A program made the position numbers and the translations under genes. Of a stretch of DNA of 64,000 nucleotides, positions 3-4,684 are shown piece by piece. Within the stretch, counting starts at the first letter, position 1; each line of letters begins with the position of its first letter. The stretch is from positions 124,001 to 188,000 of the forward strand of contig CACOLA010000001.1 of NCBI GenBank assembly GCA_902627935.1, read 5' to 3'. This DNA comes from an uncultured Pelagibacteraceae bacterium. GTDB lineage: Bacteria > Pseudomonadota > Alphaproteobacteria > Pelagibacterales > Pelagibacteraceae. The notes beneath the pieces are model-generated. The model searched no databases, had not been told where the DNA came from, and saw nothing but the letters and a program-made list of their open reading frames with translations.

Positions 3-833
3 CCTGATTTAATTATTGGTATAGGTGGTGGATCTGTAATGGATATTGCTAAAGCTTGTTCTTGTCTTTTTAATAAGACTAATAAAACTAAAATAGAAAA
101 TGTTGATATCAAAAAAAAGATTAGAACTATATTGGTGCCAACTATCTTAGGATCTGGAGCTGAAAACTCAAGAGGAGCAATATTAAAATATAAAAATGAT
201 AAAAAAATTGCGATTAGACATGATTTAATAAAAGCAGACTATGTATATGTCGATTTAAATTTGACAAAATCAGCAAAAAATAAAATTAAATGTGAAGCAC
301 TTTATGATTGTCTTTCACATGCTGTAGAGACATATATTTCGAATTTCTCAAATAAAATTGTAAAAAAACGATCATTAAATGCAATACGGTTTTTAATGAA
401 TGTGAAGTCAGTTTCATTTTTTAAAAGCAAGATTAATTTAAAAAAATTAGCATTATGCTCTATATTTATGGGACAAAACCTTTCGGAAAGCACAACCTGT
501 TTGCCACATAGGATTCAATATTCACTCTCTGAATTTTCAAATACCACTCATGCTCAAGGAATAATTGCTTTACATAAAGGATGGTTATTGTGTTCAATTA
601 ACTCAATTAGTTTTAAAAAACTCAGTAAAGATCTCAATATAGAGAATATTAAATTTTATCAAAAAATAATTGATTTGAGAAAACGACTAAAGATTAATTA
701 CTCATTAGGAAATTTTAAAATAAAAAAAAAACATTTTAGAAAAATTTCAAGTAAAACAAATGGAAAATTAGAAGCAGATCCAATTTATGTAAATAAAAAA
801 ACAATTTTTAAAATTTTAGAAAAATCTTTATGA
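3..833 (+). CDS. Iron-containing alcohol dehydrogenase, 5'-truncated by window edge (possible phosphonoacetaldehyde reductase)
   Basis: The frame is open from the first bases, so the ATG at 39 is internal and the N-terminus lies outside the window. Counting codons from base 3, the dinucleotide-binding GGGS motif is at 8-11, followed by MDIAK. The four metal ligands of the iron-dependent alcohol dehydrogenase family appear intact: D102 and H106 (D-x3-H in YDCLSHAVE), and H169 and H183 spaced 14 apart. The segment STTCLPHRIQYSLS, followed by THAQG, resembles, from memory, the aldehyde reductases of phosphonate pathways more than FucO-type enzymes. The 4-base ATGA overlap with the next gene implies translational coupling. 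Inferred role: reduction of a small aldehyde, perhaps phosphonoacetaldehyde to 2-hydroxyethylphosphonate, for the cytidylyltransferase and LicD genes downstream. The family call is firm; the substrate is not. Confidence 0.8.
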   Translation, partial: PDLIIGIGGGSVMDIAKACSCLFNKTNKTKIENVDIKKKIRTILVPTILGSGAENSRGAILKYKNDKKIAIRHDLIKADYVYVDLNLTKSAKNKIKCEALYDCLSHAVETYISNFSNKIVKKRSLNAIRFLMNVKSVSFFKSKINLKKLALCSIFMGQNLSESTTCLPHRIQYSLSEFSNTTHAQGIIALHKGWLLCSINSISFKKLSKDLNIENIKFYQKIIDLRKRLKINYSLGNFKIKKKHFRKISSKTNGKLEADPIYVNKKTIFKILEKSL

Positions 834-1555
834 TAGGAGTTATATTAGCTGCAGGAAGAGGATCGAGACTTAAAAACTTTTCTAATGATAAACCAAAAGC
901 ATTTATAAATTTATATAAGTCAAAAAAAATCATTGATTATCAAATTTCAGTTCTTAGAAAAATTAAAGTAAAAAAAATTATTATAGTAGTTGGTTATAAG
1001 AAAAATTTTTTTTATAGAAAATTTAAAAAAGATAAGGATATATCTTTTCTATATAACAGAAATTGGAAAACTACTAATGTTCTTAAATCATTTTCTTTAG
1101 CATTAAATATATTAAATGATGATTTTATTTTTGTTCATGCAGACTCAATTGTAGAAATAAATTTATATAAAAGTTTCTTGGGTTCAAAATTTTCTATTTT
1201 ACCTTTTAAAAAAAAGAAAAAATATCCAACTGAAGATATGAAGCTGTATATAAGAAATAAAAAAGTTTTTTTAACAAAAAAAAATATTACAAATTTGTAT
1301 CCAAAAGGTGAATTTTTGGGAATCGCTTTTTTTAAAAAAAATTTGATTCATGAACTCAAAAAAAAAGTAAAGATATTAAAAGATAGTAAAGATTTTTCAA
1401 AAATGTTTTTTGAAGATCTGATAAATAAAGTTTCAAATAAATATCATTTTAAAAAACTTAATATTAAAAAATTAAAATTTGTAGAAATTGATTTCAAAGA
1501 TGATTTAGATCAAGCTAGATTAATATTTAAAAAATATTTTTCTAATTTTTTTTAA
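830..1555 (+). CDS. LicC-like nucleotidyltransferase (probable CTP:phospho- or phosphono-alcohol cytidylyltransferase)
   Basis: A 241-residue single-domain nucleotidyltransferase with a GT-A fold. The nucleotide-binding signature LAAGRGSRL is at residues 6-14, the KPK lysines at 21-23 and an HADS motif with the metal-binding Asp at about 103-106. The stretch WKTTNVLKSFSLA near 79-91 resembles the TN-x2-S-L-x-LA segment of LicC and PntC-type cytidylyltransferases, which bind choline-phosphate-like acceptors. It is therefore more likely to activate a small phosphorylated or phosphonylated alcohol than a sugar. It overlaps the alcohol dehydrogenase by four bases and is followed by a LicD homologue, the usual partner that transfers the CMP-activated group. 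The nucleotidyltransferase fold is clear; CTP and the acceptor are inferred. It is very rich in Lys and Phe, typical of SAR11 island genes. Confidence 0.75.
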   Translation: MIGVILAAGRGSRLKNFSNDKPKAFINLYKSKKIIDYQISVLRKIKVKKIIIVVGYKKNFFYRKFKKDKDISFLYNRNWKTTNVLKSFSLALNILNDDFIFVHADSIVEINLYKSFLGSKFSILPFKKKKKYPTEDMKLYIRNKKVFLTKKNITNLYPKGEFLGIAFFKKNLIHELKKKVKILKDSKDFSKMFFEDLINKVSNKYHFKKLNIKKLKFVEIDFKDDLDQARLIFKKYFSNFF

Positions 1556-1612
1556 ATAAATCTATGATACTAATTGATTAATAAATAAGATAATTATTAG
1601 AAAATAATAAAA

Positions 1613-2221
1613 TTGAATAACAAAATTAAAATTAGAACTACAGAAGAGCTTAGTGATAGAAAAGAGCGTTTTCTTGAAATATGTAAGCTTTTAGACGATT
1701 TAAATCTTACCTATTTTTTAATTGGAGGTGTTCTCTTAGGTGCCAAGAGAGACAAGAAGTTTATTGAGTGGGATTGGGATGTAGAAATTAACCTTTTTAT
1801 TGAAGATCTTAATCTAAATTTTAATAAGATTTTGTCTAAATTATTAAATAATAATTTTGAGATAGACTATTGCAGAAAAACTCAGACTGATTCAAAAATA
1901 AACTTTTTTAAGAATTATAGTAAGGAAATAACTGGTTATACTTTAAATGGTTGGACTTATGATAAAGATAATAAAAGATATTTTAGAAATAAGTTAAGTT
2001 TTCCTGATCATTTCCTAAAAGAATTTGAAATAATTGAATTTTATGGAAAGAAATTTAATGCCCCTAATCCAATTACAGAATATCTTACTTATCAATTTGG
2101 TGATTGGCAGGTTAGAAAGAGAACCGATAATAAATCAATTTACATGACGCCAAAATTTTATAAACGAGATAATTTTATTGTTTCATTTGTAAAATCAATA
2201 ATCAATAAATTCAAAAGATAA
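1613..2221 (+). CDS. LicD-family phosphotransferase
   Basis: A 202-residue protein with the LicD core: GGVLLGAKR at residues 38-46 and the acidic WDWDVE motif at 53-58, matching the usual GG-x-LLGA-x-R and WDDD pattern of phosphocholine transferases and fukutin-like enzymes. The family moves a phosphodiester-linked head group from a CDP-activated donor to a sugar. The start is TTG at 1613: an in-frame TAG lies five codons upstream and no ATG is available before the core. It follows the LicC-like gene by 57 bases on the same strand. Together they suggest decoration of a surface glycan with a phosphocholine-like or phosphonate group. The acceptor glycan and group are unknown. Confidence 0.78.
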   Translation: MNNKIKIRTTEELSDRKERFLEICKLLDDLNLTYFLIGGVLLGAKRDKKFIEWDWDVEINLFIEDLNLNFNKILSKLLNNNFEIDYCRKTQTDSKINFFKNYSKEITGYTLNGWTYDKDNKRYFRNKLSFPDHFLKEFEIIEFYGKKFNAPNPITEYLTYQFGDWQVRKRTDNKSIYMTPKFYKRDNFIVSFVKSIINKFKR

Positions 2222-2243: not shown

Positions 2244-3347
2244 TTATTTATTCATTATTCTGAAAATTAATTTAAAATACCTATTTAAATTAATTTTCTC
2301 ATCGTATCTAGATAATCTTTTTTGGGCAAATTTTGTTCTATGAATACATTTATTGTAATTATTTTTCATATATATTATTTTTTTTGAAAGAGTTTTGTAG
2401 TCGCCAACTTTAAAAAGAAGACCTCCTTTACCATTTAATAAAATCTCCCTTGGACCTGTAGGGCAATTAGATGAAATAATTGGTTTTCCCAAAGTTAAAG
2501 CTTCAAGTAAAACATTTGGCAAACCCTCATATTTTGAGGATAAAATTAATGCATCAGCTAATTTTATATAAGGATAGGGATTTTTTTTAAAATTTATTAT
2601 TTTGACATACTGGGTTAATTTATTATCTAAAATAAAACGTTTAATTTTAAACTTATTAATTCCACGTCCTATTATAAGTAATTCAATTTTATATTTTGGG
2701 GAAATTATTTTGATAGCTTTTAAAAGTGTAAGATGATCTTTTTGATCCACTAATCGTCCAACACTAATCAATTTTAGTGATGATTGTTGTTTAAAAATTT
2801 TTTTACTGATCTTCTTTTTAGAAAGTTTTAAAATTTTTGTTTTATTCAATGGATTGAATATACATTCTGAATTCACATTAAATTCTTTTTTCATCTCTTT
2901 TTTGAAATCAAGACTATTTACAATAACTGCCTTAGGATATTTAAGTAATAATTTAAAAGCATTATGCTTTAATTTATTTTTAGACCATCCTGAAGGAGAA
3001 GCATTAGATCGTGCTATTATTTTAGTATTAAAGATTTTACATATCAAAATTGCATAAAAATTTGCTTGAAAACTTAAAACAACCGACTGAGAATTAAAGA
3101 ATAGTTCTTTAGCAAGTAAAAACATACTATGTAAAATTTTAAATAATCTTGAATTATTCAAAATATAATTTTGCTTTGTTGTAATTATTTTTATTTTTGG
3201 ATCTAAATTTTTTGTATCTAAGGAGGAAGTTATCAAGTTCACATTTTTAAATTTTTGGGCTAGATAATTACTTATTAAAAAAAAATTTTTTTCAACACCA
3301 CCACCTTCAATTGATGGTATAAATATAATTAATTTTTTTGATTTCAT
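2244..3347 (-). CDS. Glycosyltransferase, GT4 family
   Basis: A 367-residue GT-B fold retaining glycosyltransferase. The N-terminal half has the glycine-rich EGGGVEKN loop at 14-21. The C-terminal nucleotide-sugar domain begins with SVGRLVDQKDH near 195-205 and carries the EGLPNVLLEAL motif at 274-284, where the glutamates contact the donor ribose and phosphate. No signal peptide or membrane segment is evident, so it probably acts at the cytoplasmic face on a lipid-linked oligosaccharide. It converges on the LicD gene with 22 bases between them and diverges from the next glycosyltransferase. Donor and acceptor cannot be read from the sequence. Confidence 0.85.
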   Translation of the reverse strand: MKSKKLIIFIPSIEGGGVEKNFFLISNYLAQKFKNVNLITSSLDTKNLDPKIKIITTKQNYILNNSRLFKILHSMFLLAKELFFNSQSVVLSFQANFYAILICKIFNTKIIARSNASPSGWSKNKLKHNAFKLLLKYPKAVIVNSLDFKKEMKKEFNVNSECIFNPLNKTKILKLSKKKISKKIFKQQSSLKLISVGRLVDQKDHLTLLKAIKIISPKYKIELLIIGRGINKFKIKRFILDNKLTQYVKIINFKKNPYPYIKLADALILSSKYEGLPNVLLEALTLGKPIISSNCPTGPREILLNGKGGLLFKVGDYKTLSKKIIYMKNNYNKCIHRTKFAQKRLSRYDEKINLNRYFKLIFRIMNK

Positions 3348-3495: not shown

Positions 3496-3511
3496 TCTTT
3501 AATTGAAGATA

Positions 3512-4684
3512 ATGACAAATCAAACCTCAAAAAAAAATGTTTTTATATGGTCCCCATTTACTTCAAAAATTGGAACTACTCAAAATATAATTAATAATTC
3601 ATACAGTTTAGTAAAATACAGTTATGATCACCAGTTTAATATAAAGATAATTAATGCTTTTGGAGAGTGGGATAATTATACGAATGAATTAAAAAAAAAG
3701 AAAATTGATATTCATAATTTCAAGTTAATAAGATTTTTAAAAAATTGGAAAAAAGTTGGTTTCTTTAAAAGTAGATTTGTGTATTTTATCATATTTTTAC
3801 TTTCTTTTATTCCAATGTTTTTTTTAATTAAAAAAAACAAACCTGATTTCTTAATCATACACTTAATAACATCACTTCCTTTGATCATTTTTTCAGTTTT
3901 TAACTTTAAAACCAAATTAATTTTACACATGGCAGGACATCCTAAATTAAACTTTATGAGAAAAACTGTCTTAAAGATTGCCTCAAAAAAAGTATTCAAA
4001 GTAATTTGCCCTTCAAATGAACTTAAAGATATTTTAATTAATGAAAATATTTTTGATGATAAACAAATTTCTGTAATTGAGGATTCACATATTGAGATTA
4101 AAAAAATACAATATTTAAAAAAAATCAAAATAGAGGACGACTTTTTTAGGGATACTAAAGTTTTAATATCGATAGGCAGAATGACAAAGCAGAAAGATTA
4201 TAATTTTTTAATAAAAAATTTTAAAAAACTTTCGATAAAATATTCAGACATAAAATTATTGATTATTGGTGATGGTGAAGAAAAAAATTCTTTAATAAAT
4301 TTGATTAAAAAACTTAATTTGGAAAACAAAATTAAACTTTTAAATTATGAGCCAAATATTTATAAATATTTAAGTAGATCAAATTTTTATATTTCTACTT
4401 CAATATGGGAGGGATCTAGTTTAGCTATGATTGATGCAGCTTTCATTGGAATTCCTATCTTATGTAGTGATTGTCCATCAGGTAGGAAAGAATTTATAGG
4501 AAATGATGAAAGAGGTTTTATATATAAACAAGGGAATGACGAAGATTTCTTAAAAAAATTTTCTATTATGTATTCTAAAAAGCCTGAAAATATTAAAGAC
4601 GTTTTAGTAAATGCAAAAAAAGAAACTAAAAAGTTTACTTTATTTAAAAATTTTTTAAGTTTTCAAGCGCTTTTAAAATACTAA
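3512..4684 (+). CDS. Glycosyltransferase, GT4 family
   Basis: A GT-B glycosyltransferase of 390 residues from the ATG at 3512; a TTG three codons upstream is a possible but less likely start. The C-terminal donor-binding domain has SIGRMTKQKDY near 220-230 and the EGSSLAMIDAA motif at 300-310, equivalent to the E-x7-E motif of GT4 (here the second acidic residue is D308). A hydrophobic run at about 89-106 could peripherally associate it with the inner membrane. It is the last island gene before the minus-strand tRNA-Thr, towards which it converges. It likely adds a sugar to the same surface polymer as its neighbours; the specificity is unknown. Confidence 0.85.
   Translation: MTNQTSKKNVFIWSPFTSKIGTTQNIINNSYSLVKYSYDHQFNIKIINAFGEWDNYTNELKKKKIDIHNFKLIRFLKNWKKVGFFKSRFVYFIIFLLSFIPMFFLIKKNKPDFLIIHLITSLPLIIFSVFNFKTKLILHMAGHPKLNFMRKTVLKIASKKVFKVICPSNELKDILINENIFDDKQISVIEDSHIEIKKIQYLKKIKIEDDFFRDTKVLISIGRMTKQKDYNFLIKNFKKLSIKYSDIKLLIIGDGEEKNSLINLIKKLNLENKIKLLNYEPNIYKYLSRSNFYISTSIWEGSSLAMIDAAFIGIPILCSDCPSGRKEFIGNDERGFIYKQGNDEDFLKKFSIMYSKKPENIKDVLVNAKKETKKFTLFKNFLSFQALLKY

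Follow-up and report, generated by a model that had tools for sequence, protein, structure and literature searches.

Genes and surroundings of the cassette

We analysed a 64,000-nucleotide stretch of DNA (the window, C1:124001-188000) from a SAR11 genome of 1.04 Mb, which comprises 14 contigs and is 87% complete. The window opens with the tail of a plus-strand run of five genes, ordered aldolase, FGGY kinase, iron-dependent alcohol dehydrogenase (Fe-ADH), nucleotidyltransferase and LicD-like transferase. The FBA-type class II aldolase (274 aa, about -2498 to -1674, C1:121502-122326) and the FGGY kinase (485 aa, about -1670 to -213, C1:122330-123787) lie wholly upstream of the window, whose edge cuts the Fe-ADH frame. 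The full Fe-ADH gene encodes 349 aa and begins 217 bases ahead of the window (position about -216); its 3′ part occupies positions 3..833 and matches the Pfam models Fe-ADH (4e-25) and ADH_Fe_C (4e-10). It is followed by a nucleotidyltransferase of the LicC/PntC type (830..1555, 241 aa; Pfam NTP_transferase, 3e-13), a putative CTP:alcohol-phosphate cytidylyltransferase (CT), and by a short LicD-like transferase with a TTG start (1613..2221, 202 aa; Pfam LicD, 41 bits with a cutoff of 22.6). Open frames and Pfam matches bear out the three plus-strand genes that a sequence-only reading had described at 3-2221, and the ATGA overlap by which it had coupled the first two is indeed present at 830..833. 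Kinase and Fe-ADH are joined by an ATGA overlap as well, the aldolase ends 3 bases before the kinase, and a gap of 57 bases separates the CT from the LicD-like gene.

Two GT4 glycosyltransferase genes, a convergent neighbour on the minus strand (2244..3347) and a second one on the plus strand (3503..4684), come next and are context outside the claimed pathway. On the 5′ side, the upstream DNA contains an FkbM-like remnant, then opposite-strand genes and a surface-glycan region. The remnant (L006:5166-5440), which lies some 2.6-2.8 kb before the window begins, is a short open stretch similar to the N-terminus of FkbM-type methyltransferases, and its presence before the cassette suggests that genes have turned over here. 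The GC content of the cassette genes is 19-25%, that of the window 29.5% and that of the tuf-rpoB region 33%. AT-rich hypervariable regions of SAR11 are rich in surface genes (PMC2217521).

The four-gene module in other genomes

We scanned genome contigs for the Fe-ADH and found, among the matches listed, the aldolase, FGGY kinase, Fe-ADH and CT genes in the same order and on the same strand in a rumen Lachnospiraceae MAG (RUI154, locus L101) and in a Chloroflexi MAG (MnB_4, locus L097). The module is known from at least three genomes in three phyla, two of these genomes being MAGs. Kinase and Fe-ADH genes overlap by four bases in all three cassettes, and the proteins of the two additional cassettes share 22-32% identity with the window proteins. 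Because the first four genes are syntenic in two other phyla, their grouping is not a matter of chance. The LicD-like gene lies outside the four genes conserved elsewhere. In the Lachnospiraceae genome, a TarF-like Glyphos_transf gene is located directly upstream of the aldolase and a gene for a capsule-type glycosyltransferase (Gly_transf_sug/Caps_synth) directly downstream of the CT. The 14.7 kb examined around the Chloroflexi cassette contain no glycan gene or polyol-phosphate transferase.

We searched overlapping samples of the genus (399 genomes), family (147), class (289) and phylum (398), as well as 177 genomes of the class to which the Chloroflexi MAG belongs, and met the cassette kinase in no further genome. 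A search of 299 Lachnospiraceae gave no additional copy either, the next-best kinase reaching 296 bits compared with 916 bits for the cassette enzyme of RUI154. Nothing was found in viral contigs, or in genome contigs when the kinase served as a single-protein query. SAR11 glycerol kinases were discarded as candidates, being different kinases in other contexts; the FGGY or aldolase matches on Rhizobium, Enterococcus, Shinella and Persicobacter plasmids were likewise other kinases or aldolases in other contexts. As the distribution is patchy and the GC content low, the cassette has probably been acquired by horizontal transfer.

An FGGY kinase adjoins a class II aldolase also in a set of Lachnospiraceae operons (L204-L211), which contain a GatY-type aldolase, an FGGY kinase, a Zn dehydrogenase, an aldo-keto reductase and a PfkB kinase, and in one case a GatZ-like gene. 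These operons probably serve the use of polyols or ketohexoses by ketose-bisphosphate catabolism. The pairing of the two enzymes with a polyol dehydrogenase and further sugar-metabolizing enzymes there raises the possibility that our kinase, aldolase and Fe-ADH perform a fucose- or rhamnose-like breakdown, CT and LicD-like genes being unrelated neighbours. However, the position of the CT is the same across the three phyla, and in the sequence examined none of the cassettes has a transporter, isomerase or regulator next to it. The best of the catabolic kinases reaches 296 bits, compared with 858-916 bits for the kinases of the Chloroflexi and Lachnospiraceae cassettes, which themselves helped build the profile. 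The operons also differ from the cassette in their PfkB kinase, Zn dehydrogenase and aldo-keto reductase, and have no Fe-ADH of the cassette clade, CT or glycan transferase alongside. We consider sugar catabolism an unlikely function of the cassette.

Reductase clade and cytidylyltransferase pocket

The sequence-only reading had favoured 2-hydroxyethylphosphonate as the head group and had pointed to the upstream DNA as the place to look for pepM and ppd; the aldolase and the FGGY kinase are found there in their place. In the genome as a whole (87% complete), the only PEP_mutase-domain matches are a methylisocitrate lyase (PrpB), which sits in a prpD-prpB-prpC run, and an isocitrate lyase (AceA). 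The phosphonopyruvate decarboxylase (ppd) model yields at best 24.9 bits in this genome, compared with a cutoff of 312.5.

The nearest Fe-ADHs in other SAR11 genomes (about 30% identity) are members of pepM-ppd-Fe-ADH clusters. In a tree of 42 Fe-ADHs, 13 of the 14 pepM-linked enzymes fall into one clade (support 100/99); a separate clade (99/99) unites the window protein, its counterparts from the other two cassettes and a Kocuria Fe-ADH. The branch of the window protein is long, and its position inside this clade is therefore unsure. The metal ligands D175, H179, H242 and H256 are conserved in the Fe-ADH alignment. The second ligand is a histidine in the cassette clade, whereas the aligned SAR11 pepM-linked proteins have a glutamine; at the third ligand, the cassette clade has a PHRxQ motif in common, which is carried by 6 of 129 distinct Fe-ADH-like ORFs. 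AlphaFold models of the Fe-ADH and the LicD-like protein (mean pLDDT 70 and 38) were not used as evidence.

Fe-ADH genes with a PHRxQ motif are also found directly 3′ of a phosphoglycerate-kinase-like gene in the actinobacteria Kocuria, Umezawaea and Nocardia (L108:5583-8643, L099:5535-7858, L100:1383-3679), and in Kocuria a LicC-like CT follows the Fe-ADH. These pairs look like another supply module for the same reductase type. A region of another SAR11 genome (G007, L045:3321-17493) seems to contain two pepM-like genes, ppd, Fe-ADH, aminotransferase-like, CT and LicD-like genes, which would fit the synthesis of two phosphonate head groups. In a Woesearchaeota MAG, an Fe-ADH of the pepM-linked clade adjoins a LicC-like CT, followed by a putative CDP-alcohol-phosphatidyltransferase-like gene (L115:1513-4131); no pepM was detected on this 8.9-kb contig.

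We compared a profile of the three CT sequences with the PDB and obtained the best full-length matches for PntC (6pd1, 87.6 bits) and LicC (1jyk, 83.9 bits), the next best scoring 58. The LicC-like identity proposed from the window alone thus holds, with both enzymes ranking ahead of all sugar-1-phosphate enzymes. The CT reaches 25.4 bits with the IspD model, below the cutoff of 27, and is not of the IspD/TarI type. The CT tree was weak. A GxG(T/S)R...PK motif is invariant in the three cassettes (GRGSRL...KPK in the window), and the enzyme is predicted from its LicC/PntC family to use CTP. In Tde-PntC, E104 and E196 contact the amine of aminoethylphosphonate, the LicC equivalents being D105 and D192 (PMC6697681). 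The first of these positions is His103 in all three cassettes, such that the acidic residue is not kept, and the second is Glu195 in the window CT and is invariant in the cassettes. Given His103 in place of the acidic amine contact, a neutral alcohol is likelier than choline or aminoethylphosphonate. A polyol phosphate and hydroxyethylphosphonate would fit this pocket alike.

A LicC-like CT with a LicD-like gene next to it recalls the Lic-1 system (LicA-LicC-LicD), in which case choline phosphate would be activated and attached. The cassette, however, contains an FGGY kinase rather than the choline kinase LicA and replaces LicC Asp105 by histidine; the sugar kinase and the added aldolase and Fe-ADH have no part in phosphocholine synthesis. 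We regard phosphocholine decoration as extremely improbable. The relation to PntC likewise links the cassette to Pnt clusters (pepM, ppd, PntC; PMC6697681), some of which use Fe-ADH carbonyl reduction followed by a PntC/LicC-family CT, near surface-glycan genes. A 2-hydroxyethylphosphonate cassette with pepM and ppd elsewhere in the genome would agree with this relation, with the pepM-ppd-Fe-ADH clusters of SAR11 relatives and with the pocket histidine, which also fits a hydroxyl head group. It is nevertheless very unlikely, given that we find no PEP mutase and no ppd above cutoff in the 87% complete genome, that an aldolase and an FGGY kinase are present instead in three phyla, and that the Fe-ADH belongs to another clade than the pepM-linked enzymes. 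The earlier idea is thus partly supported: a reductase, a LicC-type CT and a LicD-type transferase together fit the making, activation and attachment of a phospho-alcohol, but its phosphonate part finds no support.

A candidate sugar-fed route to a CDP-alcohol

We next consider how the aldolase and kinase may supply the head group. Aligned with the tagatose-bisphosphate aldolases 8q58 and 1gvf, the aldolase keeps the LDHC, EAE, GNxH, HGGSG and NIS[ST] segments. These segments are those of ketose-bisphosphate aldolases, and the enzyme therefore probably acts on a ketose 1-phosphate or on DHAP. The protein misses every NCBIfam equivalog cutoff widely. As it is the sole class II FBA homologue in the 87% complete genome, a housekeeping role is possible. 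Among named models, the kinase comes closest to xylulokinase, with a score far under the cutoff, and FGGY kinases act mostly on ketose and polyol substrates (PMC3245297). In the LicD-like protein, the domain model is matched at residues 31-82 only; a WDxD motif is present, and G39, R46, W53, D54 and D56 are invariant with SAR11 LicD relatives. Enzymes with a LicD domain use CDP conjugates as donors and transfer the phosphate too, and their family includes polyol-phosphate transferases (PMC4873967).

We propose a surface-glycan cassette in which sugar is the starting material for a small neutral alcohol phosphate or polyol phosphate, activated as its CDP derivative and with C-O-P rather than C-P linkages, a reading that we hold to be evenly balanced between right and wrong. 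Acting together, the FGGY kinase and FBA-type aldolase would generate a carbonyl compound that bears a phosphate; the likeliest is a short phospho-aldehyde, split off a phosphorylated ketose in an aldol cleavage. Reduction by the Fe-ADH would yield a phospho-alcohol, which the LicC/PntC-type CT would convert with CTP to a CDP-alcohol. Finally, the LicD-like protein may move the phospho-alcohol onto the glycan, forming an ordinary phosphate ester. All of these reactions, the direction in which the aldolase works and the identity of the product are predicted from gene families, gene order, conservation and the pocket residue; family and pocket evidence point to the reduce-activate-attach half, and we infer the supply half. 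The FGGY-aldolase pairs known from the related catabolic operons (L204-L211) argue for the proposal. Against it, one kinase and a DHAP-type aldolase give a phospho-aldehyde only with an already phosphorylated ketose or a second kinase. Furthermore, the LicD-like gene is outside the conserved four and is matched in part, and the Chloroflexi cassette is without a glycan gene in the sequence examined. We favour a small head group, since the CT groups with small-head-group enzymes and the neighbour in the Lachnospiraceae genome is TarF-like. Our weakly held guess is the phosphate of a C2-C3 diol or triol, namely ethylene glycol phosphate or an isomer of glycerol phosphate.

The same genes could instead form a route to a CDP-pentitol or a larger CDP-polyol, in which a ketose, assembled or remodelled by the aldolase, is phosphorylated at its end by the kinase and reduced by the Fe-ADH to a polyol phosphate for CT and LicD-like protein, in the manner of ribitol-phosphate attachment. 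The genes would then stand in the order of the pathway steps. The usual ketose and polyol substrates of FGGY kinases and the xylulokinase match of our enzyme would be in line with such a route, as would the TarF-like gene of the Lachnospiraceae genome and the transfer of ribitol phosphate by the LicD-family proteins fukutin and FKRP (PMC4873967). However, with DHAP-type segments the aldolase product would be a ketose 1-phosphate, leaving the extra kinase unexplained, and the CT misses the IspD cutoff and groups with LicC and PntC, whose known substrates are small. We thus see the pentitol route as possible but doubtful.

Systems with a CDP-polyol supply (TarF/TarL teichoic acids and capsules; ISPD with fukutin/FKRP in dystroglycan; PMC4873967, PMC11666461) would share with the cassette the CTP activation of a phospho-polyol and its transfer together with the phosphate; a LicD-like or TarF-like transferase gene is seen beside two of the three cassettes. 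The cassette differs from them in that its CT is not of the IspD type. In the literature found, no kinase-aldolase-Fe-ADH supply is described for CDP-polyol systems, and no account unites four of FGGY kinase, nucleotidyltransferase, alcohol dehydrogenase, aldolase and LicD. We read the cassette as a candidate form of CDP-alcohol surface tailoring that has not been described before. A bolder version, which we rate as rather unlikely, is that the four genes form an undescribed route to a CDP-activated head group so far not known to occur in nature. One example would be CDP-ethylene glycol, obtained when a phosphorylated pentulose undergoes aldol cleavage; on surface glycans, such a head group would take the place of 2-hydroxyethylphosphonate as its neutral phosphate-ester counterpart.

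If our sugar-fed CDP-alcohol proposal is true, the reduce-activate-attach logic of phosphocholine and phosphonate surfaces would have a further supply route, from sugar via a kinase and an aldolase. The head group is directly testable, with four clonable genes available from three phyla. An Fe-ADH beside a LicC-like CT would by itself be no marker of phosphonate synthesis, which matters for counting ocean phosphonate producers by gene neighbourhood.
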